A model generated the notes under the pieces. That model was given only the letters and a program-made list of their open reading frames with translations. It was not told the origin of the DNA and did not search any database. Positions 11,472-28,032 of a stretch of 64,000 nucleotides of DNA are shown here, one piece after another (position 1 is the stretch's first letter; every line of letters starts with the position of its first letter). Both the position numbers and the translations under genes were made by a program. The DNA lies in the NCBI RefSeq assembly GCF_016698645.1, contig NZ_CP068047.1, forward strand, positions 3,011,001 to 3,075,000. The letters run 5' to 3'. Source of the DNA: Devosia oryziradicis. Lineage in GTDB: Bacteria > Pseudomonadota > Alphaproteobacteria > Rhizobiales > Devosiaceae.

Positions 11472-12053
11472 GAGCAGTCTCCATTGGGAAATTTTGGTTT
11501 GAGGGTTTGCCGTGGTGCCGGCGGACGCGATGGCCGCCTTGCGCACGGCCGCGACGCGCGCGGTCCAGCCCCTGCCGAAGGTGGCAAAGGTCGGCAGGCG
11601 ATGGAGGAAGGCGAGCCGCCGGTCGCAGAAGGCGCCGATCAAGGTACCGAGCCCCTTGCGATCAGCGTAGGCATCGATAGCGTCGAGCGTCAGCGGCCCG
11701 ACCTGTCCGTCCGTCGCCACACCGAGTTCGGCCTGCAGGGTGCGGATCGCCCGATCCGGCCCGGAATTGACGGCAAAATCGAACAGCGCCAGGTCGAGTC
11801 CGTACGGCAATTGCCCGGCGTGAACGCGGTCCCAATAGCTGGCGCGATAGATCTTTGCCGCTTCGCTGCGCTGCAACTCCATCACCGCGCTTTTGGGCAG
11901 CTTCCACCACGGCGAAATCCGTCGCCAACGCGCCAGGGTTTTGTGGGTGATGCCCAGATTGGTGGCGCCGCCGGGGTCGGACGGGTGATCGGCATAGCCG
12001 CCCTCATGCCGCAACACCTCATCGAGGCAGATGTCGAACCGGCTCCTAGTCAT
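11286..12053 (-). CDS. GH108-type endolysin fused to a holin-like C-terminal module
   Basis: The 255-residue product begins with the glycoside hydrolase 108 (lysozyme-like) domain: LRHEGGYADHPSDPGGATNLGIT region with catalytic Glu17 in HEGGY, then FDFAVNSGP, typical of phage and secretion-linked muramidases. Residues about 195-255 form a second module with NGYKTYLVAAFMLLAGVAQV and HLIMEALAVLFLRKG, two hydrophobic helices resembling small phage holin-like proteins. The start overlaps the g15 stop by eight bases, so it is the last gene of the GTA operon. In RcGTA the lysis genes are elsewhere in the chromosome; here lysin is linked to the particle genes. Confidence 0.85.
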   Translation of the reverse strand: MTRSRFDICLDEVLRHEGGYADHPSDPGGATNLGITHKTLARWRRISPWWKLPKSAVMELQRSEAAKIYRASYWDRVHAGQLPYGLDLALFDFAVNSGPDRAIRTLQAELGVATDGQVGPLTLDAIDAYADRKGLGTLIGAFCDRRLAFLHRLPTFATFGRGWTARVAAVRKAAIASAGTTANPQTKISQWRLLMDMLNGYKTYLVAAFMLLAGVAQVLGIDLPALDGGSAGHLIMEALAVLFLRKGLKADIERA

Positions 12054-15777: not shown

Positions 15778-15780
15778 GCC

Positions 15781-16203
15781 TCAATTCCTCTCCGGAAACA
15801 CAAAACGCCCGCTCACCCGCCGCGCCCAGGGCTCGGTCAAATCCGCCTCGACCACGCCAAGCCTCTCCTGCGCATGGATGAAGCGCGTATCGCTCAGCAA
15901 AATTCCGCAATGCTTGGGCTCTGCCATGCCGCCCAAACGGAACAGCACCACCTGCCCCGCCGCCAGCGGACCGTGTTCGGCAACCAGCAGCGTCTCCGCG
16001 GCCCGGCGCAGGGCCCCGGCATTGCCGGGGTCGCGCATATCGGCGCGATAGGGAGGCACCACCATCGGCTCGCCCCCATAGAGCGCCCGCCACACCCCGC
16101 GCAGCAGGCCCAGGCAATCGCAGCCCGCGCCCGCCAACGACGCCTGGTGCCGATAGGGCGTGCCGAGAAACTCGCGCGCCGCCGCAACGACCGCGTCGCT
16201 CAC
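15781..16203 (-). CDS. GTA g14 homologue, NlpC/P60 tail peptidase
   Basis: A 140-residue cell-wall peptidase carried at the tail tip. GTG at 16203 overlaps the g13 stop (GTGA), which decides the start. The NlpC/P60 catalytic Cys30 is in DCLG and the His98 in PKHCG, followed by a polar third residue region. It probably cleaves peptidoglycan cross-links so that the GTA tail can reach the inner membrane. Confidence 0.9.
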   Translation of the reverse strand: MSDAVVAAAREFLGTPYRHQASLAGAGCDCLGLLRGVWRALYGGEPMVVPPYRADMRDPGNAGALRRAAETLLVAEHGPLAAGQVVLFRLGGMAEPKHCGILLSDTRFIHAQERLGVVEADLTEPWARRVSGRFVFPERN

Positions 16204-17090
16204 TTCACCACCGCCCGCCCATCCAGCGCATCGCCATTGCGCGGATGGCGCAACACGAAATCGCTGCCCGGAATATGCGGAAAGCCGCGGAAATTGACGG
16301 CATTGGCGAACTTCTCGCGGCAGGTGGCAAACCGCCGGTCGCAACCGGCAGTCACCTCGAGCGTATCGCCCAGCACGACCCAGTCGCCCACGGCAACGCC
16401 AAAGGCCAGCACGTCGCCGGCAGCCATGCGCTGATGCGTCACCACGCCGTCGCGCAGCCCGACGCGCCGCCCATCCGTCCACAGCGCCGAACCGAAGCCG
16501 AACCAGCCCTCGGCGAACCCGCCGAGGCCGGTGACCACGATGCGGTGGTCGTCTTCGAGCGCCGTTACCGTGGCAAATCCCAGGAACTCCGGCCCCGTCA
16601 GGTTCACCCCACAGCGCGCATCCCCCACCACCGCATCGCACAGGCCCTGATAAATCCGCCCAAGCGTCGCATTGAGCCCCTGCTGCGCCGAGCGCAGCTC
16701 CGCCCGGAACACCCCATCCTCGCGCACAATCTCGCCGATCGTGTCGCTGCGCAGCCTTACGCGCTGGCTCACATCGGCCCAGTTGACGCGCCAGGTCTCG
16801 ACCACGGCGCCGTCATAGCGCCCGAGCAGGATGTCATCCTCGGTGATATCGTCGGCGCTGAGCACGCCCAGCACCTCCGACGTCTCCACCTGCGCCCCCA
16901 GCCGCGCCGGCACCTCGCCCCCGTCGAGGCCATGCGCCGGCACGAAATCGGTGCCACCAAAGCTCAGCACCCCGTCATGGTCGGTAAAGCCCAACACGAC
17001 GCCATCGCCGCGCACCAGCTTCCAGCACGTCGCCAGCGTCGTCTCGCTCTGCGCCAGATGCGCCGCCAGCCCGATATCGAGCACCCTCAT
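16200..17090 (-). CDS. GTA g13 homologue, tail hub protein (DUF2163)
   Basis: The 296-residue protein has the DUF2163 domain followed by the phage BR0599-type C-terminal domain. Four cysteines, Cys151, Cys160, Cys250 and Cys257 (GLCDAVVGDARCGV and GCDRRFATCREKF), are spaced as in RcGTA g13, where they bind an iron-sulfur cluster in the tail hub. It overlaps g12 upstream by four bases and g14 downstream by four. Confidence 0.92.
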   Translation of the reverse strand: MRVLDIGLAAHLAQSETTLATCWKLVRGDGVVLGFTDHDGVLSFGGTDFVPAHGLDGGEVPARLGAQVETSEVLGVLSADDITEDDILLGRYDGAVVETWRVNWADVSQRVRLRSDTIGEIVREDGVFRAELRSAQQGLNATLGRIYQGLCDAVVGDARCGVNLTGPEFLGFATVTALEDDHRIVVTGLGGFAEGWFGFGSALWTDGRRVGLRDGVVTHQRMAAGDVLAFGVAVGDWVVLGDTLEVTAGCDRRFATCREKFANAVNFRGFPHIPGSDFVLRHPRNGDALDGRAVVK

Positions 17091-17707
17091 GGGATGATCT
17101 CCACCAACGGAATGCTGGGCGCCTCGGCCCCATCGAAGCTGCTGAGCTCCACATCGAGCCGGTCGGTATCGAAACGGACAGGCACGTCGAACAGGAACCC
17201 GGCCGTCAGCGCGGCACCATTGGCCGGCGGGACCGTGAAGCCGACCACGCCCGTGGCGACATCGACGCTCCAGCCACTCACCTGTTCGACGCCCGCAACC
17301 GCCACTTTCACGCTGCCCGCAACCGGCCGCGTGATCGGCCGGAAATACGGATCGAAGCTGGCGCCATAGCGCTTGGTCAGCTGGAAGCCCGTGCGGCTGC
17401 CATTGCCGGTCCCGATGGGCTGGTCGAGGGCAGTCGGCACCGGGCCGCCGCTGGAATAATCCAGCCCGTCGCGCCAGAGAAAGCCATGCAGTCGTCCGCG
17501 ACGCTCCTCGAAAAACGCCAGCACATCAGCCATGTCGGCCCGCGATTTCACGCCATAGCCGGCATTGTAGCGCCGCCGCGAGTGCTGCCAGCGCCCATTG
17601 CGCTGCTCGCGCCCCGAGGCCAGCGTGACCACGTCTGTCCGGCGCTCCGGCCCACCGCGGGAGCCAAGGGCGACATCGAGCGGAAACCGCACTGCGTGAA
17701 AGGCCAT
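17087..17707 (-). CDS. GTA g12 homologue, distal tail protein (DUF2460)
   Basis: A 206-residue DUF2460 protein: FPLDVALGSRGGPERRTDVVTLASGREQRN region, RRRYNAGYG and the FLWRDGLDY segment are family hallmarks. In RcGTA it forms the ring connecting the tail tube with the hub. Its stop overlaps the g13 ATG. Confidence 0.92.
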   Translation of the reverse strand: MAFHAVRFPLDVALGSRGGPERRTDVVTLASGREQRNGRWQHSRRRYNAGYGVKSRADMADVLAFFEERRGRLHGFLWRDGLDYSSGGPVPTALDQPIGTGNGSRTGFQLTKRYGASFDPYFRPITRPVAGSVKVAVAGVEQVSGWSVDVATGVVGFTVPPANGAALTAGFLFDVPVRFDTDRLDVELSSFDGAEAPSIPLVEIIP

Positions 17708-17761
17708 GGTTTACTCCTCAGAATTGGGAAACTGATCCGCAGCCTGCCCTACCCGCCGGCC

Positions 17762-17845
17762 GTCACCCTCGGGCTTGACCCCAGGGCTCTTCACTTGCTC
17801 TGGGTTCGGGAAGTGTAGTGCCCTCGGGTCAAGCCCGAGGGTGAC
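17762..17845. repeat. Intergenic palindromic repeat, family B copy 1
   Basis: Arms GTCACCCTCGGGCTTGACC (from 17762) and the complementary end at 17845 enclose about 35 bp including TTCACTTG. The element lies between g11 and g12 in the 167-bp gap. A close relative is at 27273-27388. It should fold as a stem-loop in the GTA mRNA. Confidence 0.78.
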
Positions 17846-17874
17846 GATCGAGTTCTTGAAGCGCGCTCAGCCCA

Positions 17875-18429
17875 TCAAGCGCTGCGCGTCCCGCGCCTCA
17901 CCGCCCGCAACAGCATCGCGCTGATCTCCGCCTCGCTCGCGGCAAAGCTGCGCGCGTCGGTCGCGGTCACGTTGAACGTCACATTCACCGCGCCGCCGCC
18001 ACCGGCGACGCCCAGCCGGCCGTCGGGGCCGCGGGCCAGAGGCATGATCGCCTCCGGCCCCGCTTCCCCCGCCAGGCCGACAGGAGGGGATGAGCCCAGC
18101 GGAAAGTAGCTCGGCGTCGCGATCACCCCACCCTTGGCGAAGGGTGTGACATTGCCGAGCGCCGGATTGGTTCCGGCAAACAGGTTGCCGATCAGCCCGC
18201 CGACCATGTCGCCCAGCGGCTTGATGGCGGCCTTGAGGGCGATATCGGCGAAGCTGCGGGCGATATCGCCCAGTACGGATTTGAGCGACTTGCCCTCGAG
18301 CAGCGCGCCGCGAAAGCCGGCGCTGATCGAGCGCGCCACGCCATCGGCCAGGTTGCCGATACGCCCAAGTTCGATCTCCACGCTGTCGAGTTCATCGTGG
18401 AAACTGTCGGGAAATAAACTATCGGCCAT
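17875..18429 (-). CDS. GTA g11 homologue, tail tape measure protein
   Basis: A 184-residue tape-measure-like protein: an N-terminal helix with alternating acidic residues, GFRGALLEGKSLKSVLGDIARSFADIALKAAIKPLG, then a Gly-rich FAKGGVIATPSYFPLG stretch and a GEAGPEAIMPL motif typical of phage tape measure C-termini. GTA tails are short, and this protein is correspondingly small. Its start overlaps the preceding 62-codon gene by 11 bases. Confidence 0.85.
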   Translation of the reverse strand: MADSLFPDSFHDELDSVEIELGRIGNLADGVARSISAGFRGALLEGKSLKSVLGDIARSFADIALKAAIKPLGDMVGGLIGNLFAGTNPALGNVTPFAKGGVIATPSYFPLGSSPPVGLAGEAGPEAIMPLARGPDGRLGVAGGGGAVNVTFNVTATDARSFAASEAEISAMLLRAVRRGTRSA

Positions 18430-18607
18430 CGGGAAAGCGCTCCATCAGTCCATCGAGTTCATTGCGGGCAAGCGGCCCCCGGTCGCCCATCACCGCGCCC
18501 CAGGCCGAAGCCAGCTCGCGCGGCGTCATGCGCCAGAAGTCGCGCGGCGGCAGCCGCAGCACGCCCAGCCCGAAACGCATCGCCGTGTCCCAGGGAAAGG
18601 GTGTCAT
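18419..18607 (-). CDS. GTA g10.1 homologue, tail assembly chaperone (rcc01693 family)
   Basis: A 62-residue protein, FPWDTAMRFGLGVLRLPPRDFWRMTPRELASAW in outline, the signature of the small rcc01693 family that pairs with g10 as tail assembly chaperone. It overlaps g10 by four bases and g11 by eleven. Confidence 0.85.
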   Translation of the reverse strand: MTPFPWDTAMRFGLGVLRLPPRDFWRMTPRELASAWGAVMGDRGPLARNELDGLMERFPDGR

Positions 18608-18918
18608 GCCGCGTCTCCAAACGTCGCCTTGAGCAGCCGTGCCGCGATCTCCGCCGCGCCCTTGAGTCCGCCCTCGATGGCAAACCGGGCCAGATCATCG
18701 TCGGTGATGGCATTGCCCCCGCCACGCAAGCCGGCCCCCAGGATCGCCGTCAGGTCGCGCGCCGACACCCGCCCGGCCGAAAACCGCTCCGCCAACCCAA
18801 CCAGATCCCCGGCCTGCAGCCGGCTCTCCAGCTCCGCCAGCGCCCCCAGCGTCAGGCAAAGCGTCCGCGTCTCGCCGCCTATGACGGCATCGATCTCACC
18901 ACGCTGCGTGATGGCCAT
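18604..18918 (-). CDS. GTA g10 homologue, tail chaperone (GTA-gp10)
   Basis: A 104-residue protein, MAITQRGEIDAVIGGETRTLCLTLGALAELE in outline: the family core TLGALAELE is present. ATG at 18918 was chosen because the open frame upstream runs through a palindromic repeat and reads as non-coding. It works with g10.1 during tail assembly. Confidence 0.88.
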   Translation of the reverse strand: MAITQRGEIDAVIGGETRTLCLTLGALAELESRLQAGDLVGLAERFSAGRVSARDLTAILGAGLRGGGNAITDDDLARFAIEGGLKGAAEIAARLLKATFGDAA

Positions 18919-18952
18919 GTGTTTGTTCCTTGCTTGATGAAGCCCGCCCACC

Positions 18953-19053
18953 GGGTCATTCCGGCGAAGGCCGGAATCCATGTCCGGCAACCTCCACAGA
19001 CACCTTGTTCGGGGCGACATGCGGATCTGGATCCCGGCCTTCGCCGGGATGAC
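18953..19053. repeat. Intergenic palindromic repeat, family C copy 1
   Basis: Left arm GGTCATTCCGGCGAAGGCC begins at 18953 and the complementary right arm ends at 19053. The copy at 20985-21087 is nearly identical, including the loop side TCCATGTCCGGCAAC. It lies between g9 and g10, 34 bp upstream of the g10 ATG. Confidence 0.82.
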
Positions 19054-19064
19054 ACCGTGGAAAA

Positions 19065-19478
19065 TCAGATCGCCGTAAACGTCACTTCCCCAGCGCTTTC
19101 CAGCGCCAGGTCGAAGGTCACTTCCCCCGCATGGTCGGCTGCAAATTCCAGCGCCACGATCTGGAAAGGTCCCTGCACCGTGCCGAAATCGGGGATGATC
19201 AGCTGCCAGTTGCGGATGGTGCCGCCAAAGAACAGCGAGCGCACCTGTGCGTCCGACGTGGTGTCCTTGAACACGCCCGCGCCGGTCACAGAAGCCCGCT
19301 TCACCCCGCCGCCGGCCAGCAGTTCCCGCCAGCGTCCCGCGCTTTCCTGGTCGGTCGTATCGACCGTCGGGGCATTGAAGGCCAAAGCCCGCGTCCGCAG
19401 GCCCGCCACCGTCAGAAAGCTCCCCGACCCGGCCTGGTCGAGCTTGAGCAGCATGTTCTTCCCGCTCTGAGCGGCCAT
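19065..19478 (-). CDS. GTA g9 homologue, major tail protein
   Basis: A 137-residue major tail tube protein of the TP901-1/GTA type when started at ATG 19478 (MAAQSGKNMLLKLD), the same length as RcGTA g9. Conserved segments are AFNAPTVDTTDQES and ALEFAADHAGEVTFDLALESAGE. An open extension to 19511 lacks conservation. It sits between two palindromic repeats. Confidence 0.92.
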   Translation of the reverse strand: MAAQSGKNMLLKLDQAGSGSFLTVAGLRTRALAFNAPTVDTTDQESAGRWRELLAGGGVKRASVTGAGVFKDTTSDAQVRSLFFGGTIRNWQLIIPDFGTVQGPFQIVALEFAADHAGEVTFDLALESAGEVTFTAI

Positions 19479-19507
19479 GTGTTTGTCCTTTGTCAGTGCC
19501 CAAAACC

Positions 19508-19622
19508 TCACCCCCTCCCAACCTCCCCATCAAGGGGGAGGTGCCGTCCGGTGAGTGGACCGGATCGAGTCAAGTGAGCGGAGAGAAACCTCCCCCTCGA
19601 TGGGGGAGGTAGGAGGGGGTGA
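19508..19622. repeat. Intergenic palindromic repeat, family A copy 2
   Basis: Arms 19508-19542 and 19588-19622 are complementary (TCACCCCCTCCCAACCTCCC against its reverse). The middle contains CCGGTGAGTGGACCGG, itself palindromic. It fills the gap between g8 and g9. Confidence 0.8.
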
Positions 19623-19640
19623 CCATCCGCTTGCGCGGCA

Positions 19641-20039
19641 CTAAGCGCCCTCGCTCAAAAATCGCAGCCCCACCGCAGCCCGCGCCAGCCCAGTATCCTT
19701 GTCGATCACCGTCTCGGTCCGCACATGCTCGCGATGCGTCACCATGATCCCGGCGGACGGAAACCCTAGCGCCACCGCGACCACGCGCTCGGCCATATCG
19801 AGCGCACGTTTCCGGCTGGGCTGGTCGCCCCAGCAATGCAGCAGCAGCCGGTGCTCCTGGCCCGGCGTCTCGTCGCCGTCCCGCTGCACCACGTCATGCC
19901 GCGCGATCACCACATAAGGCGCCGGCCGGCCCTGGGGCGCTGCGTCGAACACGCCGTCGGCGCCCGCAATCGCCATCAGTGCCGCGTCGGCCTTGAGCGC
20001 CGTCACCAGCGCCCCCTGCAACATCGAAATCGGATGCAT
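19641..20039 (-). CDS. GTA g8 homologue, tail terminator (DUF3168)
   Basis: A 132-residue DUF3168 protein: MHPISMLQGALVTALKAD start, VFDAAPQGRPAPYVVI and LLLHCWGDQPSRKRALDMAERV are family hallmarks. It caps the tail at the head side in tailed phages and RcGTA. Confidence 0.88.
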   Translation of the reverse strand: MHPISMLQGALVTALKADAALMAIAGADGVFDAAPQGRPAPYVVIARHDVVQRDGDETPGQEHRLLLHCWGDQPSRKRALDMAERVVAVALGFPSAGIMVTHREHVRTETVIDKDTGLARAAVGLRFLSEGA

Positions 20040-20043
20040 GGCC

Positions 20044-20385
20044 CTACCCCGTAAAGCTGGTTTCGCTGCAGGCGCAGCTGAGATAGGCCCGCCGCCCGTT
20101 GAGGTCGGCGGCGCTCACCACATCGAGGTTCCGTCCGCGATAGACGATGCGGTCGCCCGGCTTGATGTCGTTGCGAAAGCGGAAGACCACGGCATGCGAA
20201 ATCTCCACCGCCCGGCCATCGGCGCTGGTGCCCTGGCGCCCGGTCAGCGAGCGCACGCGCGCCCAGAGGTTGGTCACCGGCACGAACATGGCCACGTGCC
20301 CGCCCTCGGTCTCCCCGGTCATTTCCCGTCGCTTAAGCTGCACGCGATCGGTCAAGCTCCCCAGCGTCGGCGTCTGCTCGTTCAC
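20044..20385 (-). CDS. GTA g7 homologue, head-tail stopper/closure protein
   Basis: A 113-residue SPP1 gp16-like head closure protein: LTDRVQLKRREM at the N-terminus and LWARVRSLTGRQ plus FRFRNDIKPGDRIVYRGR in the beta barrel. Four bases overlap g6 at its start (20382-20385). Confidence 0.88.
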   Translation of the reverse strand: MNEQTPTLGSLTDRVQLKRREMTGETEGGHVAMFVPVTNLWARVRSLTGRQGTSADGRAVEISHAVVFRFRNDIKPGDRIVYRGRNLDVVSAADLNGRRAYLSCACSETSFTG

Positions 20386-20948
20386 AGCCGCACCCGCTTG
20401 TAGCTCGCGACCATGCGGTCGAAGCCCGATGGCACCACCGCGCCCGATCCAGCCACGATCACGGCATCGCGGTGTTCGAACCAGTACCCGACCAGCAGCA
20501 ACAGCGCCTGGCGGATATCGGCCGGCACGTCCCCCGGCTCCGTGCCGAAGCCGGCGACATAGTCGATCTCGATGCCCTGCCGCTCGCGCAGCACGGGCAT
20601 GCCGCTGACCGTCGCCGGCAGCAGCAACCGATCCGGCGCGCGCAGGAACTGCGCCAGCGGAACGTCGTGCCCCGCGCCATTGGCGTCATAGGCGGTGACT
20701 TCGGTCAGCGCGATGAAGGGCGACACCGGCAACTTGACCTGCCGATCGTCCGGCCAGCCGTCGAGCATGACGCGCCAGCTCTGCGCCAGCAGGGCCCGCC
20801 CTGTAACGCCCTCGACATGCAGCCGCGCCGCCCCGATCAGCGTCGTGATCAGACCGTCCTCGGCACCGTCATCGACGCGAAGAAATGCCTTGGCCTCGGC
20901 AAGCGAAACCGGCTCCTCCGCGGGCCCCGCGAGAAGGTATGAAGTCAT
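20382..20948 (-). CDS. GTA g6 homologue, head-tail adaptor
   Basis: A 188-residue phiE125 gp8-like connector: PVSLAEAKAFLRVDDGAEDGLI at the N-terminus is the family signature, and QALLLLVGYWFEHRDAV lies near the end. ATG at 20948 is preferred, as the upstream extension reads through a palindromic repeat. It starts 37 bp from repeat C2. Confidence 0.9.
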   Translation of the reverse strand: MTSYLLAGPAEEPVSLAEAKAFLRVDDGAEDGLITTLIGAARLHVEGVTGRALLAQSWRVMLDGWPDDRQVKLPVSPFIALTEVTAYDANGAGHDVPLAQFLRAPDRLLLPATVSGMPVLRERQGIEIDYVAGFGTEPGDVPADIRQALLLLVGYWFEHRDAVIVAGSGAVVPSGFDRMVASYKRVRL

Positions 20949-20984
20949 GGTGTTGCCTTTGGCTTGTTTGTCTTTACCAACCAC

Positions 20985-21087
20985 CGGGTCATTCCGGCGA
21001 AGGCCGGAATCCATGTCCGGCAACCGCCACGAACACTGGGGTTTGGGTGACATGCGGACATGGACCCCGGCCTTCGCCGGGGTGACA
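20985..21087. repeat. Intergenic palindromic repeat, family C copy 2
   Basis: Same structure as 18953-19053: GGTCATTCCGGCGAAGGCC at 20987 and its complement ending at 21087, with the same TCCATGTCCGGCAAC flank. Together with D2 it occupies the 300-bp gap between g5 and g6. Confidence 0.82.
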
Positions 21088-21153
21088 CAGCGTTTGGGGA
21101 GGAAGGGTGAGGGAGGCACGACGCCGCGAAGTAGGAGCCGTCAGCCTGAGTCA

Positions 21154-21232
21154 GATAGCGCGGAAAGCCGAGCACCGGAGCGGAGCGTACATAAGTACGT
21201 GAGCACCGGAGCGCAGGCTTTTCGCGCTAGAT
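21154..21232. repeat. Inverted repeat, family D copy 2, downstream of the capsid gene
   Basis: Arms ATAGCGCGGAAAGCC (21155-21169) and its complement (21216-21230) enclose two direct copies of GAGCACCGGAGCG separated by the palindromic core CGTAC-ATAA-GTACG. The core plus GTGAGCACCGGA matches the element between feuP and feuQ. It lies just after the major capsid stop and could protect or terminate the capsid message. Confidence 0.72.
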
Positions 21233-21248
21233 GGCCGCGCTCGGGGAC

Positions 21249-22490
21249 TTAGCTTGCGGCGAACTTCAGCAGCTTGATCGCGTCATAGTCCGCGATGCCG
21301 CCGCCAACGCGCTTGGTCGTGTAGAACAGCACATAAGGCTTGGAACTGAACGGGTCGCGCAGCACGCTCACGCCCTGGCGGTCGACGATCAGATACCCGC
21401 GCTTGAAGTCGCCGAAGGCGATCGACAGCGAGTTGGCGGCGATATTGGGCATGTCCTCGGCCTCGACCAGGTCAAAGCCCATCAGCCGTGCCTTGCCGTC
21501 GGCGGTCAGCGCCGGCTGCCACAGGTAGTTGCCATCGGCATCCTTGAGCTTGCGCAGCGCGCCCTGCACCTTGCGGTTCATCACCCAGGTGGCGTTCTGC
21601 CGGTAGCCCGCCTTGAGCGCATAGACCAGGTCGATCAGCACGTCGCTGGCATTGCTGGCCGGCAGCGCGCCGGCCGAGCCGGTGGCGATGTAGCCGAGGT
21701 TACCCCAGCTCCAGCTGGTTTCCGCCACGGTGGTCGCCGCCAGGAAGCCGGTCGGCTTGTTAACGCCATTGCCGGAAACGAATGCCGTGGTCTCCTGCGC
21801 CGCAAAGGCCGCATTGACCTCATCGGCGATCCACTGGCCGACATCGACAGCCGCATCGTCGAGGAAAGCCGAGGTCGCCGCCGGCATGGCATAGAGTTCC
21901 ATGGTCGGATAGCTGAGCTCGGCCAGGGTCTGCGAATTGGTAGTCGGTCGCGCCCCCGTTTCACCCACCCAGCCGGTCGCCGGACCGGTGACCGAGATCG
22001 GCCGCTTGTAGACTGCGGCGCTGACCTGGCGGATGCCAGCAATGGCGCGGATCGGCGACACCGCCGTCATCAGCCGGGTGATTTCCGTTTCGGTCTCGGG
22101 CGGCACCACATAGCCGCCATCGGCGGCGACGCCGATCGACAGCGCCTTCTCCTCGCCGCGCTTCACATAGGAGGCAAAGGCTTCCTTGTACTCGCCGTCG
22201 ACCTGGCGGCCCTTGCCGTCCAGATGGATCGCCCTGCCGTCGAGCAGCGGGCGGGCGCGTTCCACCAGCGCCCGATCCATGGCCGCCTTCTGCCCGTCGA
22301 GCACGGCGTTGAGCCGGTCCAGCTTGTCCTCGAGCAGCCCATCGGCCGAACCGCGCTTTTCGATCTCGCCCAGGCGCTGGTCGTTGGTGCGCTTGAATTC
22401 CTCGAAGGCCGTCGAGAATTCGGCGAAGAGCGCGGCAATGTCGCTCCCCGCGCCGGCCTTGGTTTCAAGGCCGTCACTGGTCATGTCCAT
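21249..22490 (-). CDS. GTA g5 homologue, HK97-type major capsid protein
   Basis: The 413-residue product (ATG 22490, MDMTSDGLETK) has an N-terminal scaffold-like delta domain rich in charged helices (about 20-100), then the HK97 fold: SIGVAADGGYVVPPE, VSPIRAIAGIRQVS, WVGETGARPTTNSQTLAELS and GFDLVEAEDMPNIAANS. The GTA capsid is cleaved after the delta domain by g4. An upstream open frame to 22631 overlaps g4 and is not used. Confidence 0.94.
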   Translation of the reverse strand: MDMTSDGLETKAGAGSDIAALFAEFSTAFEEFKRTNDQRLGEIEKRGSADGLLEDKLDRLNAVLDGQKAAMDRALVERARPLLDGRAIHLDGKGRQVDGEYKEAFASYVKRGEEKALSIGVAADGGYVVPPETETEITRLMTAVSPIRAIAGIRQVSAAVYKRPISVTGPATGWVGETGARPTTNSQTLAELSYPTMELYAMPAATSAFLDDAAVDVGQWIADEVNAAFAAQETTAFVSGNGVNKPTGFLAATTVAETSWSWGNLGYIATGSAGALPASNASDVLIDLVYALKAGYRQNATWVMNRKVQGALRKLKDADGNYLWQPALTADGKARLMGFDLVEAEDMPNIAANSLSIAFGDFKRGYLIVDRQGVSVLRDPFSSKPYVLFYTTKRVGGGIADYDAIKLLKFAAS

Positions 22491-22501
22491 GTAGGGTGTC
22501 C

Positions 22502-22978
22502 CTATCGGTTGCGGATGGTGTTGGTGGCGGCCACGATGGCGGCGCCGGTCGAGTAACCGGAGGGCGCGATGCGGGCGTCCTCCATCATCGGAAAAGTCAC
22601 GATCGAGATCTCGAACAAGTCGATTTCCCAAAGCTTGCGGTGCCCACCCTCGCGGGTGGCCTTCACCGTGCGGAAGCCGATGGAGAGCCCATCGAGCGCC
22701 CCGCCCTCGATCAGCCGCCTGAGCGCATCGGCCCGCTCGACGCCGGGTACCAGTCGCCCGGCCACAAAGAGGCCATGGCTGTCCTCGCCAATGGCGTCCC
22801 AGGTGCCCACCGGCTCCTTGGGGTCATGCTGGAACAGCAACCGGATCCGGTCGCGCCGCTTGCCGAGGCTCTTCGCAAACGCCCCCGGCATGACGATATC
22901 GCCACCGCCATCGAGCCGGTTGAAAATGCTGGCATAGCCGGAAAACCGCCCCTCGCCGTCGATGGGTATTCCCGCCAT
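22502..22978 (-). CDS. GTA g4 homologue, prohead protease
   Basis: A 158-residue HK97-type prohead serine protease. His (LLFQHDPKEPVGTW) and Ser (GALDGLSIGFR) of the catalytic site are present. It matures the capsid during head assembly. ATG overlaps the stop of the 39-codon frame upstream (ATGA). Confidence 0.93.
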   Translation of the reverse strand: MAGIPIDGEGRFSGYASIFNRLDGGGDIVMPGAFAKSLGKRRDRIRLLFQHDPKEPVGTWDAIGEDSHGLFVAGRLVPGVERADALRRLIEGGALDGLSIGFRTVKATREGGHRKLWEIDLFEISIVTFPMMEDARIAPSGYSTGAAIVAATNTIRNR

Positions 22979-23097
22979 CAGCGCTTGCCCGGCTTGGCGA
23001 TGGCCGCCTTGCCGGGCTTGGCCAGGGTGCCCGCCAGGTTCCAGGCGAATTGGCGGAACGTCTGCTGCGCATTGTGCACATTCTGCTTATTGGCCAT
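22978..23097 (-). CDS. Small basic ORF between g3.5 and g4, 39 aa
   Basis: Thirty-nine codons from ATG 23097 to a TGA that overlaps the g4 ATG. It is basic and ends in two KPGK repeats (AKPGKAAIAKPGKR). Coupling to both neighbours suggests it is translated; an in-frame ATG at 23109 overlapping g3.5 is also possible. I recognise no family. Confidence 0.45.
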   Translation of the reverse strand: MANKQNVHNAQQTFRQFAWNLAGTLAKPGKAAIAKPGKR

Positions 23098-23101
23098 GGA
23101 C

Positions 23102-23290
23102 TTAGTCATCCTTCCTGAAAAGCCGATTCAGAGATGCGATCTCCTGCACGAAGTCGTTGAAGTGTTGATTCACCTTGGCCATCTCGCGCAGCGCCCACAC
23201 CAGCAGCGTGCTTGCCCCCGTCGCCCACAGAAATAAGGCAAGGTGCGCGAGATCGCCCCGCTCGATGACCGTTTTGGTCAGCTCGTCCAT
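23102..23290 (-). CDS. GTA g3.5 homologue, head formation protein (rcc01685 family)
   Basis: A 62-residue protein with one membrane-like helix (LAHLALFLWATGASTLLVWAL) and a helical tail VNQHFNDFVQEIASLNRLFRKDD, matching the small rcc01685-type GTA protein by position, size and hydrophobic profile. GGAGG six bases before ATG is a strong ribosome site. Its promoter region is shared with the divergent DUF4160 gene and holds tandem palindromes. Confidence 0.78.
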   Translation of the reverse strand: MDELTKTVIERGDLAHLALFLWATGASTLLVWALREMAKVNQHFNDFVQEIASLNRLFRKDD

Positions 23291-23307
23291 GTCGGCCTCC
23301 GCTCAAG

Positions 23308-23348
23308 TTTTGCACTTCTGGCAAAGAGTTTTTGCACCCGGCGCAAAA
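23308..23348. promoter_or_regulatory. Two tandem palindromes, candidate operators between g3.5 and the DUF4160 gene
   Basis: TTTTGC-N7-GCAAAG at 23308-23326 and TTTTGC-N7-GCAAAA at 23330-23348. Half sites and the seven-base spacer are identical in design and the repeats are exactly 22 bp apart, two helical turns, which is what cooperative dimers of one repressor would need. They lie 18 bp from the g3.5 start and 42 bp from the DUF4160 start, so one regulator could control both directions. Confidence 0.6.
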
Positions 23349-23389
23349 GCAGCTGTGCTTCATTGACTCGAACTCAGCGAGCACTAGAC

Positions 23390-23632
23390 ATGCCCACAGT
23401 CCTTCGCCTCGACGGCTACCGGTTCTTTTTCTTCAGCAACGAGAATGACGAGCCGCCGCACATCCACGTTGAATTCGGCGACAAGCTCGCCAAGTATTGG
23501 CTTGAGCCTGTGGAACTGGCATCATCGCAGCGCGTCCGCTCCCACGAGTTGGGCGCGGTCCGGCGACTGGTCGTCGAACACCGCAATGAGTTCCTGAAGG
23601 CCTGGCATGACCACTTTGACGCTGCAGACTGA
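23390..23632 (+). CDS. DUF4160 protein, putative toxin-antitoxin-like pair member
   Basis: An 80-residue protein: MPTVLRLDGYRFFFFSNEN, EPPHIHVEF and a C-terminal EHRNEFLKAWHDHF match DUF4160. This family is almost always encoded next to DUF2442, and the pair is suspected to be a toxin-antitoxin-like module. The ORF extends upstream but the family start MPTV decides ATG at 23390. It lies inside the GTA cluster on the opposite strand. Confidence 0.82.
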   Translation: MPTVLRLDGYRFFFFSNENDEPPHIHVEFGDKLAKYWLEPVELASSQRVRSHELGAVRRLVVEHRNEFLKAWHDHFDAAD

Positions 23633-23867
23633 ACCGCTCGCCGTTGACGTCGCCGTCACCGCGACGGTGCTTCGCGTCACCCTCGATGACGGCCGCGAAC
23701 TCTCGGTGCCGGTTGAGTGGTTCCCACGCCTGCGCGATGCGTCCGACCTCGACCGCGCCAACTGGCGCCTGATCGGCCGCGGCGAAGGCATCCATTGGCC
23801 CGCCATCGACGAAGACATTTCCGTCCGCGGCCTGCTGGCCGGCCACCGTCAGACGCGGGCGGCCTGA
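23607..23867 (+). CDS. DUF2442 protein, partner of the DUF4160 protein
   Basis: An 86-residue protein overlapping the preceding gene by 26 bases. The DUF2442 pattern is clear: VTLDDGRELSVPVEWFPRL, NWRLIGRGEGIHWPAIDEDISVRGLL. Some members are DNA-binding or partner proteins of helix-turn-helix antitoxins; no helix-turn-helix is visible here. It is transcribed against g3. Confidence 0.82.
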   Translation: MTTLTLQTEPLAVDVAVTATVLRVTLDDGRELSVPVEWFPRLRDASDLDRANWRLIGRGEGIHWPAIDEDISVRGLLAGHRQTRAA

Positions 23868-23872
23868 CCGGT

Positions 23873-24019
23873 TTGGATATCTTCGTTGCGCTCCTGCCCG
23901 TCATGCTTTTGCCGTTCGTCATTGCCGTCGGCGTGGTGGCGATTGCTCGCGGGGTCTATAGGATTGGGCTTCCACTCCTGGGTCTGGCGGTCGTGATAAT
24001 CGCCTACTACGGCCTCTAA
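23873..24019 (+). CDS. Possible small membrane protein after DUF2442
   Basis: TTG at 23873 opens a 48-codon frame five bases after the DUF2442 stop. The product is two hydrophobic helices (FVALLPVMLLPFVIAVGVVAI and LPLLGLAVVIIAYYGL) separated by ARGVYRIG. Its TAA overlaps the g3 TAG on the other strand. There is no good ribosome site, so it would depend on coupling. Confidence 0.38.
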   Translation: MDIFVALLPVMLLPFVIAVGVVAIARGVYRIGLPLLGLAVVIIAYYGL

Positions 24020-25170
24020 ACCCCCAACATCGCCCGCTTCTCCGCGTCGCTCAGAAACTCCGCTCCGCCCACCCTTGCCCACAGCGCCGCGCGATCCTCC
24101 GCCAGAGCCTCCACCCCATCGAAATCCGGGCTGACCACCGCCCCGCCAAAGGCCGGCGACAGCCAGTTGCTCAGCTCCTCGGCCACCCGCACCACCAGCG
24201 GGATCAGCGTCTGCCGCCATAGCGCCCGGTTGGCCTCGGCCAGGTTGGCATAGGTATTGTCGCCCGGAATGCCGAGCAGCATGGGCGGCACGCCGAAGGC
24301 CAGCGCGATGTCGCGCGCCGCGGCATGCTTGGCCTCGATGAAATCCATGTCGCGCGGCGACAGCGCGAGGGCCTTCCAGTCGAGACCACCCTCGAGCAGC
24401 ATCGGCCGGCCGGCATTGGCGGCGCCGGAAAAGTTCTGCTCCAGCTCCGCCTTGAGCCGGCTGAACTGGTCCTCGGTGAGGCTCTGCCCCGCCGCCGAAT
24501 AGACCAGCGCGCCGCTGGGCCGCGCCGCGTTGTCGAGCAGCGCCTTGTTCCACAGCCCCGCCGCATTGTGGATGTCGAGGCTTGTCTGCGCGGCCTCGAG
24601 CGGCGCCATGCCGTAGTGGTCGTCGAGCGGATGGAACAAAGCCATATGCAGCACCGCGGGCACCACGCCCTCGTCCTGCCGCAGCCGCGCCGTCCGCCCG
24701 CCGGCGGTATAGTCATAGGCCACGGGCCAGCCATCGGCCCCGGCCACCACCTTCATGCGGTCCGGCCTGAGCCCAAAGATGCCGCGCACCTCGCCATCGA
24801 CGATGCCCGCCTGCAGGTAGGCATTGCCCGCCGTCTGCAGATAGGCATAGACCGCCTCGAGCAGCTCTCCGCCCGATTGCCGCCCATTGGGCCGCGCCAG
24901 CAGCGTCGCCAGCGGGTGCTCATCCACCCGCCTGCCCCCCTCGCTCACCACCAGCGGCACGCGATTGGCCGTCTCGGCAATCAGCCTTACGCAGCGGTAG
25001 ACCACCGGATTGCGCGCAAAGCCCTGGTTGACCAGGCTGGCAAAGCCCCGATTGCTCCAGCTCGCCGCGCCAAGTTGGCTGAGGCTCAGCAGCGTATGCC
25101 CGGCAAAGCTCTTCCGCTCCGCAGGCGTGTTCATTCGCCCGCCCAGGAGGCGGCTGATCCAGTTCGGCAT
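24016..25170 (-). CDS. GTA g3 homologue, portal protein
   Basis: A 384-residue HK97-type portal: N-terminal SLVNQGFARNPVVYRCVRLIAETANRVPL, the central GVPPMLLGIPGDNTYANLAEANRALW signature and a helical C-terminus. ATG 25170 (MPNWISRLLGGR) has GAGGA about nine bases upstream; longer open frames lack a site. It lies 17 bp downstream of g2. Confidence 0.94.
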   Translation of the reverse strand: MPNWISRLLGGRMNTPAERKSFAGHTLLSLSQLGAASWSNRGFASLVNQGFARNPVVYRCVRLIAETANRVPLVVSEGGRRVDEHPLATLLARPNGRQSGGELLEAVYAYLQTAGNAYLQAGIVDGEVRGIFGLRPDRMKVVAGADGWPVAYDYTAGGRTARLRQDEGVVPAVLHMALFHPLDDHYGMAPLEAAQTSLDIHNAAGLWNKALLDNAARPSGALVYSAAGQSLTEDQFSRLKAELEQNFSGAANAGRPMLLEGGLDWKALALSPRDMDFIEAKHAAARDIALAFGVPPMLLGIPGDNTYANLAEANRALWRQTLIPLVVRVAEELSNWLSPAFGGAVVSPDFDGVEALAEDRAALWARVGGAEFLSDAEKRAMLGV

Positions 25171-25187
25171 GAGTTTGGTTCCTCGCC

Positions 25188-26444
25188 CTACAATCCGCGT
25201 ATCCGCGGCCGCATCTCGTTGAGCAGCAGGTCCGTCACCGCCCAGACCAGGGCATCGACCCGGTCCGGCGAGTGCCCGTCGCTCCGCCCATCCACGCCAA
25301 AGGCGCACATCTCGTCCTCAAGGGCCGTCAGCCCGTCGGCGTGGCTCACCAGCCCGCGGCCATAGAGCGCCGCGACGGGTTCGGCGCGCAGCCACTTGCC
25401 CCTGATAGCCCGCACTTCCCGAACCGGCACGGCGCCGTCGACCTGGGCGATCACCGAGCGCACCAGGTCGCCGCCCTGGTTCACCTCCACCACGATGGCA
25501 TCGGCCTGGTGTGCATGAAACGCCGCCACCGCCCGCCGCGCCCAGGCCAGCGGCGCCGCCGGCCTGACCGTGCAGTCTTCCAGCACCGCCACCCCCTCGC
25601 CCGCCCGACCGGCCACGACAATGCCGCAGGCATCCGAGCTGGCATTGCCCGTCACCGGTGGATCCACCGCCACGACGATCCGCCCGATCTGGCCGCCCTC
25701 GAAGCGCCGGAACATGCCACGCTGCCACAGCGCCCCCGGATCATCCTCGATCAGCTCGCCATCGAGCTCCTGCCGGCCGAGGAGCGTCCCCTCATAGCGC
25801 CCGACAACCGCCGTCATGAAGTCCGGCGCCAGGTGGGCGTGGTTGTCCGCGGTCCGCATATGGGTGAACACCGTATTGCTGTCGGTCAGCAGCCTTCTGA
25901 GCAGCGGTATCGGTCGCGGCGTGGTCGTTGCCAGTTGCCGTGGCTTGTCGCCAAGGCGAAGTGCGAACTGCAGGTTGTCCCAGGCCGAAGTTGCGTTGGG
26001 CCACTTCGCCACCTCGTCGCACCATGCTGCCGCAAATTGCGGTCCACGAAAGCGATCGGGGTCGGAGGCCGACATCAGCATGGCTTCCACGCCATTGGGA
26101 AACAGCAGCGTTCCCTGCCGAATGCGCGGCTGCGCGTCATCGGGAAAGACATCCAGGATGCCGCTTTCGCCCCGCACCATGATGGCCATGGCCTCCGTCA
26201 TTGTTTCGCCGACCAGGGCGATCGGCCCCACCCCGGCATTGACCTGTTCCCTTACCCATTCCGCGCCCGTCCGCGTCTTGCCGCAGCCTCGTCCACCCAT
26301 GAACAGCCAGGTCGTCCAGTTGCCCGCCGGCGCCCGCTGCGCCGGATAGGCCCAGTCCTGCCAGTCGAACAGCTGCTTGATGACCTCCTCGTCGGAAAGC
26401 TTGGCGACGCGGCGTTCGAACTTAGCGACGGCTGCGCTGTTCAA
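25188..26444 (-). CDS. GTA g2 homologue, terminase large subunit
   Basis: The packaging ATPase-nuclease of the GTA, about 418 residues. Walker A is GGRGCGKT within FMGGRGCGKTRTGAEW; the Walker B region is AAAWCDEVAKWP. RuvC-like nuclease acids are in VVAVDPPVTG and the end DRVDALVWAVTDLL. No ATG is near the conserved beginning; TTG at 26444, overlapping the g1 end by 23 bases, is the best start. Longer open frame to 26606 would overlap g1 too far. Confidence 0.93.
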   Translation of the reverse strand: MNSAAVAKFERRVAKLSDEEVIKQLFDWQDWAYPAQRAPAGNWTTWLFMGGRGCGKTRTGAEWVREQVNAGVGPIALVGETMTEAMAIMVRGESGILDVFPDDAQPRIRQGTLLFPNGVEAMLMSASDPDRFRGPQFAAAWCDEVAKWPNATSAWDNLQFALRLGDKPRQLATTTPRPIPLLRRLLTDSNTVFTHMRTADNHAHLAPDFMTAVVGRYEGTLLGRQELDGELIEDDPGALWQRGMFRRFEGGQIGRIVVAVDPPVTGNASSDACGIVVAGRAGEGVAVLEDCTVRPAAPLAWARRAVAAFHAHQADAIVVEVNQGGDLVRSVIAQVDGAVPVREVRAIRGKWLRAEPVAALYGRGLVSHADGLTALEDEMCAFGVDGRSDGHSPDRVDALVWAVTDLLLNEMRPRIRGL

Positions 26445-26835
26445 GGCGCTTGGCCAGCTTGGCACGCAGTTCCTGCATGTCGCGACGCGGCCGTGGTGCC
26501 TCGTCCTTGCTGTCATGGCCTGAAAGATGCGCCATCTTCTCGAAGTTCTTGATGATGTCGGCCAATTGCTGTGTCTCCTTGTCGCCCAGGGTTGCGCCGG
26601 TCGCACTGGCCAGCTTGCCCACCTGCTGTTCCAGCACGCCGAAAATCTTGTCGAAGGTCGCGGTCTGGCGTTCCCTCAGGGTCGACCGTCGCGACGGCCA
26701 ACGCTCCCGCCTCTGGCGATGCTCGAGCTGCCCCTTGGTTACGCCGAACCGCTCGCAGATCGTCCTGAGCGTATCGTCACTGTGCTCATAGGCATGCCGG
26801 ATTGCCGCCCAGTCCGGCGCTTGCGTTTCATCCAT
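26422..26835 (-). CDS. GTA g1 homologue, terminase small subunit-like
   Basis: A 137-residue protein beginning DETQAPDWAAIRHAYEHSDDT; residues 15-50 form a helix-turn-helix (LRTICERFGVTKGQLEHRQ), then a helical dimerisation region and a basic tail (RAKLAKRLEQRSRR). It is first in the cluster, and g2 overlaps it. The upstream 99 bp contain the GANTC-rich leader. RcGTA g1 is the small terminase, needed for packaging. Confidence 0.82.
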   Translation of the reverse strand: MDETQAPDWAAIRHAYEHSDDTLRTICERFGVTKGQLEHRQRRERWPSRRSTLRERQTATFDKIFGVLEQQVGKLASATGATLGDKETQQLADIIKNFEKMAHLSGHDSKDEAPRPRRDMQELRAKLAKRLEQRSRR

Positions 26836-26840
26836 CCAAT

Positions 26841-26915
26841 GACTCACTTGTGAATCGTCCCGACATCGCTGCCCGGAACCCATCGAATCCGCCACGGATT
26901 CGTCCATGCGGAGTC
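26841..26915. promoter_or_regulatory. GANTC-rich bidirectional leader with palindrome, upstream of GTA g1
   Basis: Five GANTC sites occur in 75 bp: GACTC 26841, GAATC 26852, GAATC 26885, GATTC 26897, GAGTC 26911. The middle two form the perfect palindrome CGAATCCG-CCA-CGGATTCG at 26884-26902. GANTC is the CcrM methylation site and marks GcrA-controlled promoters in alphaproteobacteria. The leader is shared by g1 (minus) and the KTSC gene (plus). Confidence 0.55.
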
Positions 26916-26934
26916 CAACCGGGAGAGACCCCCG

Positions 26935-27165
26935 ATGTCCGCTGCCATCCGCCATATCCATTACAAGCCTGCCGACGAGGAACTCTCGATCTGGTTCGGA
27001 CCCGAAGGCCGGCGCTACAAATATTTCGGCGTGCCCGAATTCATCTACGAAGCTTTGCGCGACGCCGAGTCGCGCGGCCGGTTCTTCAACCAGGCCATCC
27101 GCGGCCGCTTCGAATGCCGCTATGTCGACCCCGCTGAAAAGCGTAACCGCCGCTCGGCTTCGTGA
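26935..27165 (+). CDS. KTSC domain protein
   Basis: A 76-residue KTSC-domain protein: IRHIHYKPADEELSIWFGPEGRRYKYFGVPEFIYEAL, with AESRGRFFNQAIRGRF at the end. KTSC is a small domain named after its Lys-Thr-Ser-Cys core; its function is unknown. Ribosome site GGGAGAG precedes the ATG. Divergent from GTA g1. Confidence 0.85.
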   Translation: MSAAIRHIHYKPADEELSIWFGPEGRRYKYFGVPEFIYEALRDAESRGRFFNQAIRGRFECRYVDPAEKRNRRSAS

Positions 27166-27272
27166 CCCAATTTCGTGACCATGCCTGAACTATAGCCGAT
27201 CACCGTGACGCGGGGATAAGTCAGGGTGATTTTTCTGGCAAACGGCGGTGAACTGACCCTCTCCCGCCGGTC

Positions 27273-27388
27273 GTCACCCTCGGGCTTGACCCGAGGGCTC
27301 TTCACTTGACGATGTTGGGGATCGTGCCGCGGATGGCCCATCACCCGTGCTGAAAGTGGAGATCCCACGGGTCAAGCCCGAGGGTGAC
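27273..27388. repeat. Intergenic palindromic repeat, family B copy 2
   Basis: GTCACCCTCGGGCTTGACCC starts at 27273 and its complement ends at 27388. The same arm sequence is at 17762-17845. It lies in the 261-bp gap between the KTSC and DUF2147 genes, convergent there, so it may be a bidirectional terminator; the loop is much longer than in copy 1. Confidence 0.75.
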
Positions 27389-27426
27389 GGCAGGTGGATT
27401 TCTAGGGACGCTGCCCTCCCCCAGCC

Positions 27427-27819
27427 TCAGATCCTTACGAAATCCACGTTCTGGCAGGCGATCAGCTGGCAGCCGCGCAGGCTCATCTTGTTGCGGTTCA
27501 CCAGGGTCACCGATCCGGACACCGTCTGGCCATCATACTTCACCGTGCCGCGCCATTTGTTGGCGCCGGTCGACCGCGCGCCCTGCACCACATGCTTGTT
27601 GAGCAAAGCCAGGTTTTCCGGAGTGCGGGCATCCTTGCGCAGCCAGATCAGCTTGGCGCAGAGCGCCGTGCCGTCCCCGCAATAGCTGACCGAATAACGC
27701 GACTCGCCCGTCGTGGTCTGCCAGGTGCCGACCGGGGTCAGGTCCTGGGCAAAAGCAGGGGCCGCTGCACAAAGGGCAAAGGCGGCGGCGGCGATGGTCT
27801 TGAACATGGTCATGGTCAT
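27427..27819 (-). CDS. DUF2147 exported protein
   Basis: A 130-residue exported protein. The signal peptide ends at AAAPAFA-QD, followed by the DUF2147 beta-barrel: GTWQTTTGESRYSVSYCGDGTALCAKLIWLRKDA and KYDGQTVSGSVTLVNRNKMSLRGCQL. Four cysteines probably make disulfides. ATG at 27819 is nearest upstream to AGGAG, but 27813 has the better spacing. Function is unknown. Confidence 0.8.
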   Translation of the reverse strand: MTMTMFKTIAAAAFALCAAAPAFAQDLTPVGTWQTTTGESRYSVSYCGDGTALCAKLIWLRKDARTPENLALLNKHVVQGARSTGANKWRGTVKYDGQTVSGSVTLVNRNKMSLRGCQLIACQNVDFVRI

Positions 27820-27908
27820 CTCTCCTCTGTTGCAGCACAGAGTCGCCGCCCCGGGTTGAACGGGTTGAGAACCAATCGTTCGGATTGGGTTCATGTTCGG
27901 GCTTCCTT

Positions 27909-28032
27909 CACCTCTCCCTCTGGGGGAGAGGTCGACCGAAGGTCGGGTGAGGGGCCCTTTCTTTTATACCGCTGGGGAAAGGCCCCCTCACCCGCGGCTT
28001 CGCCGCCGACCCCTCCCCTAAGGGGGAGGTGC
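27909..28032. repeat. Palindromic repeat, family A-related, copy 3
   Basis: Several nested inverted repeats: CCTCTCCCTCTGGGGGAGAGG at the left, GGGTGAGGGGCCC against GGCCCCCTCACCC, and GCGGCTTCGCCGC between. It occupies almost the whole space between the DUF2147 and Hsp70-like genes and could act as a terminator for the Hsp70-like gene upstream of it on the minus strand. Confidence 0.72.

Follow-up and report, generated by a model that had tools for sequence, protein, structure and literature searches.

An antisense DhiTA-type gene pair occupies a variable slot between gene transfer agent head genes in Devosia

The window, the whole 64-kb stretch of DNA that was analyzed, covers positions 3011001–3075000 of the one-contig, 3.5 Mb genome of Devosia oryziradicis. 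Its minus strand carries RcGTA-type head and tail genes in RcGTA order, which mark it by gene content as a gene transfer agent (GTA) cluster. The labels g1–g15 are borrowed from the RcGTA nomenclature. The large terminase gene g2 (25188–26570, the stretch as scanned, with a provisional start; PF03237/PF17289) and the portal gene g3 (24016–25170; PF04860, E 1.9e-85) lie on one side of an accessory slot, with the portal gene as its edge. The opposite edge is g3.5 (23102–23290), a 62-aa gene that had no match in the family profile scans; its homologues share 67–95% identity and lie past the slot at other junctions, with a fragmented copy in L065. Beyond it are the prohead protease gene g4 (22502–22978; PF04586, E 1.7e-29) and the HK97-type major capsid gene g5 (21249–22511, again as scanned with a provisional start; PF05065, E 4.7e-90). 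Genes g6–g15 (12046–20948), from the connector to the baseplate megatron, were assigned by NCBIfam and Pfam matches in a profile scan that left out g14, which was mapped in relatives. The products of g6, g7, g9, g10.1, g12, g13, and g15 scored above NCBIfam cut-offs and those of g8 and g10 above Pfam cut-offs; the families include the rcc01693 family, the Rcc01695 family, the GTA baseplate hub, GTA_TIM, and GTA_megatron (1453 bits, cut-off 800). The g11 tape measure reached 140.6 bits on the RcGTA model, under the cut-off of 220. A basic 39-aa ORF on the minus strand (22978–23097) occupies the space between g3.5 and g4, which measures 120–144 bp in 21 of 21 clusters; the ORF is therefore a candidate for a further short, conserved gene of the GTA. 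A repeat that translates as PAKAG...MDSGLRRNDP is present in two copies, at about 18920–19060 (g9/g10) and about 20950–21120 (g5/g6). An Rfam scan of 20000–28000 gave no match, and no tRNA genes were found in the 64-kb window.

Two plus-strand genes lie between g3 and g3.5, antisense to the GTA cluster. The first is a dhiT-like toxin gene encoding an 80-aa DUF4160 protein (23390–23632; PF13711, E 1.8e-19, 70.2 bits, cut-off 23), and the second is a dhiA-like antitoxin gene encoding an 86-aa DUF2442 protein (23607–23867; PF10387, E 9.8e-22, 77.4 bits, cut-off 23.9). The genes overlap by 26 bp; the dhiT start was taken at the conserved ATG at 23390, and the listed ORF opens upstream at 23243. 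The family assignments and the strand confirm the initial annotation, which had placed a DUF4160/DUF2442 pair antisense among the minus-strand GTA genes and had called it toxin–antitoxin (TA)-like. The second point is strengthened by a tested system with the same domains in the same order: dhiTA of Dickeya dadantii 3937 is described as a DUF4160/DUF2442 type II TA system with the toxin gene first and with overlapping, co-transcribed, and autorepressed genes (PMC8198452). DhiT overproduction inhibits growth in both Dickeya and E. coli, and the pair relieves the inhibition (PMC8198452). With a DUF4160 toxin-like gene followed by a DUF2442 antitoxin-like gene, the window pair is of the DhiTA type. 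By analogy with Dickeya, the window DhiT would poison, DhiA would neutralize, and the pair would be autoregulated. The window DhiT scores 31 bits on the NCBIfam DhiT model NF048015 against a cut-off of 100, and it is therefore a relative of the same kind and not a member of the same ortholog group. In the comparisons between carriers that could be computed, dN/dS was 0.02–0.28 for dhiT and 0.08–0.29 for dhiA, values that indicate purifying selection on both genes. The pair is not a chance pair of ORFs because other genomes have the same pair antisense at the same junction and because these ratios are low. DhiA resembles the solved, uncharacterized chain 3k8r (E 2.8e-6), and a comparison of DhiT with solved structures gave nothing meaningful (best E 0.6). 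The PADLOC defence models matched none of the three plus-strand proteins at the locus. DhiT matched one phage record at 38% identity, and it matched 1476 homologues, of which the best 120 were listed.

The third plus-strand ORF (23873–24019) is hydrophobic, 48 aa long, and opens with a TTG; it is probably not a gene. The family profile scans gave no match, and a search of 75 same-genus genomes at E ≤ 0.01 recovered it from the window's genome only, a count of 1 to be read with the proviso that distant relatives may escape so short a query. A longer frame that ends in this ORF resembles an ORF of L065, but only in the stretch opposite dhiA. In two other carriers (L044 and L058), dhiA reaches into the portal stop codon and leaves no room for a third ORF. 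The small membrane ORF had been proposed as part of the insert; on these grounds of conservation, family, and room, we rejected it as a third member of the unit.

The divergent region between g3.5 and dhiT (99 bp; 23291–23389) is the putative site of the dhiTA promoter. It measures 37–118 bp in the seven carriers of an intact antisense pair, with 37 bp in D. enhydra, and is mostly unconserved among them. The similarity z-score of the window's region is at least 3.0 in three of its six comparisons (with L065, L147, and L150), and the other 18 pairs among the seven regions have z below 2. A conserved operator or promoter was looked for among the carriers and was not found. One copy of a TTTTGC/GCAAAA inverted repeat is present in the window's region and is not above chance; for 6-bp inverted repeats, P was 0.16 in the window, which is the chance level, and 0.04 in L065. 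A scan of 22900–24200 for promoters of the sigma-70 type alone found no sigma-70-like site, and one terminator-like site was found in the same interval against 1.4 expected by chance.

The variability of the slot was measured across the genus. A portal match was present in 62 of 75 same-genus genomes, and 54 of the other 61 regions were taken besides the window's; those left out were six with distant prophage-like portal matches and one (G054) with pieces at contig edges. L055, L084, and L085 are without a complete junction, and the comparison therefore covers 52 complete g3/g3.5 junctions including the window's. In L081, L082, and L083 (G028, G002, and G004) the portal match is in two pieces, and these clusters may be broken or misassembled. 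The g3/g3.5 gap ranges from 2 to 3521 bp and is below 60 bp at 13 of the 52 junctions. Sense genes with a GGQW N-terminus are present at 19 junctions. Intact antisense dhiTA is present at 4 (window, G074, G027, and G038, where toxin-like genes accompany it) and dhiTA remnants at 2 (G013 and G018, both also with toxin-like genes). At two junctions (L057 and L062) the only genes are of the type that makes up the downstream part of the toxin-like cassettes, and one (L042) has a sense DUF1902 gene (25.2 bits, cut-off 22), presumably HicB-like, with a small partner that has no family. A further 14 hold 68–473 bp with no identified gene, as judged without a family scan of their ORFs. Neither dhiTA nor a remnant is found at 46 of 52 junctions, where the GTA head genes are still present.

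Mapping of 21 clusters over the interval between g2 and the lysis gene gave 20 or 21 values for each junction; gaps above 400 bp occur only at g2/g3 (10–1019 bp) and g3/g3.5 (2–3462 bp), and the remaining junctions measure −11 to 396 bp. The g3/g3.5 junction is the larger of two cargo sites in the GTA head module, and g2/g3 is the second variable site. At g2/g3, PIN-like (VapC-like) genes lie antisense to the GTA in L051, L054, L061, and L068. PIN was above the cut-off in all three of these loci that were scanned, and the Phd/YefM partner scored 35.9 bits in L061 (cut-off 29.8) and 28.4 bits, just below the cut-off, in L054. A g2/g3 ORF of L034 considered as MazF-like had no Pfam match and was dropped. 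The tally over the junctions is six dhiTA and four PIN loci in antisense and 19 toxin-like loci in sense. This orientation bias is a tendency and not a rule, because the DUF1902 gene and its partner in L042 are in sense. The slot of G018 reads cassette, second copy of the portal 3' end, dhiA, and g3.5, and copies of g3.5 sequence lie between cassettes in G038 and G053. These duplicated portal and g3.5 pieces suggest that cargo is inserted through recombination in the flanking genes.

The toxin-like family comprises 23 ORFs at the 19 junctions, all in sense with the GTA. They have a common N-terminal domain, DQPRxPxGxxxGGQW (17 aligned), and their C-termini differ. A Pfam scan of seven of the Devosia proteins found a known toxin domain above cut-off in L068 alone, whose C-terminus is a CdiA-CT RNase A domain (PF18431, E 1.7e-11, 45.4 bits, cut-off 27); no family reached its cut-off in the remaining six, of which L061 had a weak DUF4258 match. 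A CDGFS-type C-terminus occurs at 12 junctions (degenerate in L050, variant in L067), and all 12 have one downstream gene family. Full-length members of this family are about 216 aa, and it is also present at L057, L061, L062, and L072 without the CDGFS C-terminus. The downstream small genes that were scanned did not match known immunity families; their recurrence is the pattern expected of immunity genes, and they are putative members of that class. The cassettes in L048 and L050 look broken. The G+C content of the toxin-like inserts is below that of the portal in 19 of 19 cases (mean 0.579 versus 0.666), and the three dhiTA-only inserts are also below the portal. No MuF domain (Pfam) was found in these seven proteins or in ten toxin-like proteins from outside Devosia, and the one GGQW protein tried had 0 matches in 50,697 phage records. 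The sense cargo would be toxic and carried with the particle, if its domains and position are a guide. MuF toxins adjoin portals in temperate phages, and the term 'gene transfer agent' is absent from the part of that text available to us (PMC5576092); PMC13236601 concerns GTA release and a defence operon at a distance from the GTA cluster. Among the papers listed by a search of titles and abstract openings, with partial coverage of the literature, none described a GTA head operon that carries TA or toxin genes.

The GGQW genes extend beyond Devosia. An alignment of the N-terminal domain was used as the query and matched 51 of 397 genomes of the order, and one region each was taken from 40 of these. 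In 15 of the 40 regions, from four further Hyphomicrobiales families, the match lies beside or between GTA head gene homologues. It follows g2, g3, or g4 or is in the portal frame, and the GGQW genes shown there are in sense. Contig ends truncate several of the 15, and in L226 the sole GTA homologue is g4. The other 25 regions, three of them from Devosia, have no GTA homologue at E ≤ 1e-5, and the N-terminal domain is therefore not confined to GTAs. A clean fusion is encoded at L238:6588–8552 (G432), where a 654-aa protein combines a portal domain (E 2.1e-87) with an RNase A domain (E 6.9e-13) through a GGQW linker; its cluster (L256) has 15 of 17 GTA query genes. P0141 has the same two Pfam domains as this fusion. 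In L232 the portal runs into the GGQW domain without a change of frame, but the portal start lies in a different frame, and the portal end occurs again afterwards. The portal of L260 (G092) is split, with about 13 kb between its two pieces and an antisense GGQW-motif ORF in that interval. Eight clusters were mapped further: L256 as above, L257, L258, L262, and L263 with 14–16 of the 17 query genes, and the other three with 3, 3, and 8. A known toxin domain above cut-off was found in L238 alone of ten non-Devosia toxin-like proteins scanned, and a deaminase match in L227 was below cut-off (E 0.0017). Their gene content suggests that the non-Devosia clusters are GTAs rather than related prophages.

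Intact antisense dhiTA at g3/g3.5 is known from seven carriers: the window, G074, G027, G038 (Devosia sp. Root685), two Devosia MAGs (L147 and L150), and D. enhydra (L151). Seven further Devosia genomes were found to contain a DhiT relative at 69% identity or more, and in six of them it lies at this junction with its orientation unchanged, the exception being D. indica. This bears out the tie between the pair and the GTA locus that the initial annotation had drawn. The alternative that it raised, a pair scattered over random sites, does not describe the window lineage but does describe the distant DUF4160 genes. DUF4160 occurs in the genus at 37 places in 25 of 75 genomes, with 4 at g3/g3.5; the DUF4160 tree used the 30 of 37 places with loci, and one row of fewer than 46 residues was left out. 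No GTA homologue lies within the up to 6 kb viewed on each side of the DhiT relatives (67–72% identity) in D. indica (L148), which has the pair, in a Hyphomicrobiales MAG (L149), and in a Mesorhizobium MAG (L152). Further DUF4160/DUF2442 pairs lie about 48–87 kb from the portal in G074, G025, G027, G037, G062, and G066, and the distant copy in G027 has an internal stop.

The divergence of the pair follows that of the portal. Across the seven carriers, dN correlates with portal dN for both dhiT (r 0.89) and dhiA (r 0.84), with an exact Mantel P of 8/5040 (0.0016) each from dN values used to two decimals. In dS, the pair is for the most part level with the flanking genes or above them, and many values are near saturation. 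Decay is visible in G018, where dhiA is whole and dhiT is lost, and in G013, where both genes are broken. The nearest relative on the tree (L032, 94% portal identity) has a toxin-like cassette in place of dhiTA. On a FastTree portal and capsid tree of 55 rows, rooted by choice on L147, L150, and L151, all of them carriers, dhiTA with its remnants takes 7 changes (shuffled mean 8.5, minimum 5), toxin-like cargo takes 13 (mean 15.9, minimum 11), and the empty state takes 10 (mean 11.8, minimum 7). With 7 changes against 8.5, the clustering of dhiTA therefore barely exceeds that of shuffled labels. The distances agree with an old resident that was lost many times, without proving it, and repeated exchange of dhiTA between GTA loci is the alternative to one old gain.

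Two regulatory genes on the minus strand of the window bear on transcription through the pair. One encodes a DUF6456 protein (46622–47128; PF20057, E 1.1e-26), which we take to be GafZ and thus a candidate anti-terminator of the GTA operon, and the other encodes a Bac_DnaA_C helix-turn-helix protein (47121–47477; PF08299, E 6.2e-18), which we take to be GafY. A DUF6456 match in 1 of 14 control genomes, that of Caulobacter, backs the GafZ identification. With these putative identities, the window contains the GafYZ regulators of an RcGTA-like cluster. Caulobacter GafY and GafZ activate the GTA promoter, and there is evidence that GafZ lets polymerase pass terminators in the cluster (PMC11150451). 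Producer cells die to release the particles, according to the introduction of the same paper (PMC11150451). Since GafY/GafZ-like genes are present in the window, read-through of dhiTA is likely; given anti-termination by GafZ, the GTA operon would be expected to cross a 0.5-kb antisense gene pair.

The reading that we favor, and consider reasonably probable, is that the pair is a self-contained DhiTA-type module with its own promoter, an old and often-lost resident of a tolerant GTA cargo slot that is crossed by anti-terminated polymerase and whose commoner cargo is sense toxin sets with immunity-like genes. It builds on what sequence comparison provides: the family, place, and orientation of the pair, the hypervariability of the slot, the co-divergence, the purifying selection, the remnants, and the cargo types. 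The module would be expressed from its own plus-strand promoter; a TA pair would have to be expressed in resting cells irrespective of the GTA, which its own strand would provide. The module would go back to the ancestor that the carriers share, would have passed down together with the GTA locus, and would often have been lost or displaced; the GTA operon would cross it by means of a GafY/GafZ-type anti-terminated RNA polymerase. The commoner sense sets would be made together with the particle, and GTA particles might deliver their toxins.

Several other readings were weighed. The initial annotation held that the insert would block or collide with transcription of the operon, that g3.5–g15 probably need their own promoter in the 99-bp region, and that the unit may switch between packaging and capsid/tail genes. 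That the antisense unit splits the operon in this way, with g3.5–g15 starting from 23291–23389, is scarcely credible. The unit is antisense, long enough for collisions, and has a divergent region of 99 bp, but junctions of 2–3521 bp are accommodated in the 52 clusters and 13 are shorter than 60 bp. The divergent region of 37–118 bp is mostly unconserved, the sigma-70-type scan found no site, and a GafZ-like gene is in the window. Very improbable, too, is a coupling in which a polymerase from the activated GTA silences dhiTA, leaving DhiA to decay and DhiT to arrest the producer cell. The antisense orientation in seven of seven intact carriers and both remnants agrees with it, as does the release of particles by producer death (PMC11150451), but 46 of 52 GTA junctions in the genus do without the pair.

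The same 46 junctions weigh on the proposal that the pair is an addiction module, in which a deletion across the locus would remove labile DhiA and free DhiT, and the GTA cluster would be retained. We judge it improbable. Co-divergence, purifying selection of both genes, and the whole antitoxin gene left in G018 after loss of the toxin gene are in its favor. Against these stand the head genes kept at junctions with neither pair nor remnant, and a section heading and a figure title of PMC8198452 credit improved plasmid maintenance to ccdAB2 and not to dhiTA. With 4 intact carriers among 52 junctions, the comparison has little statistical power. The TA-like character first assigned to the pair stands, and its role as keeper of the GTA is weakened. 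A neutral passenger, a common TA module in a permissive gap whose tie to the GTA is hitch-hiking only, is somewhat unlikely. DUF4160 is common elsewhere (only 4 of its 37 places are at g3/g3.5) and the gap tolerates many inserts, but the relatives of at least 69% identity sit at g3/g3.5 in six of seven further Devosia genomes and the co-divergence with the portal is strong.

Beyond the resident DhiTA-type module that we favor, the cargo types invite a wider and more doubtful proposal, made here tentatively, that g3/g3.5 is a GTA conflict locus. Many Hyphomicrobiales particles would carry portal-associated or portal-fused polymorphic toxins that hit non-immune recipients, transfer would be kin-biased, and antisense TA modules would be rival or protective residents. 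To our knowledge, GTAs are viewed as stripped-down particles without cargo genes. The turnover of toxin-like and TA genes in the head operon, together with the portal–toxin fusion, would make some GTAs possible toxin carriers, and toxin-carrying GTAs would offer a testable reason for kin-biased exchange. The presence of dhiTA in a GTA also provides a natural test of what happens when anti-terminated transcription meets an antisense gene pair.

The window pair and DhiTA of Dickeya have the same domain pair, the toxin gene first, and overlapping genes; the overlap is 26 bp in the window and 3 bp in Dickeya, and the window pair differs in lying within a GTA cluster, antisense to it, with a DhiT model score below cut-off. 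The GGQW genes resemble MuF polymorphic toxins in being toxin-like, next to the portal, and variable at the C-terminus, whereas the GGQW N-terminus is a short domain without a Pfam family, unlike the MuF domain, and sits in GTA-like clusters. With CdiA-CT RNase A toxins (PF18431), the L068 and L238 proteins have the same C-terminal domain, above the curated cut-off; unlike CdiA, the remainder of these proteins is the GGQW domain or a GTA-type portal. RcGTA-like GTAs and the window have in common the head and tail families up to GTA_megatron and the GafY/GafZ-like genes, but the Devosia GTAs differ in having two hypervariable junctions with TA and toxin-like sets.
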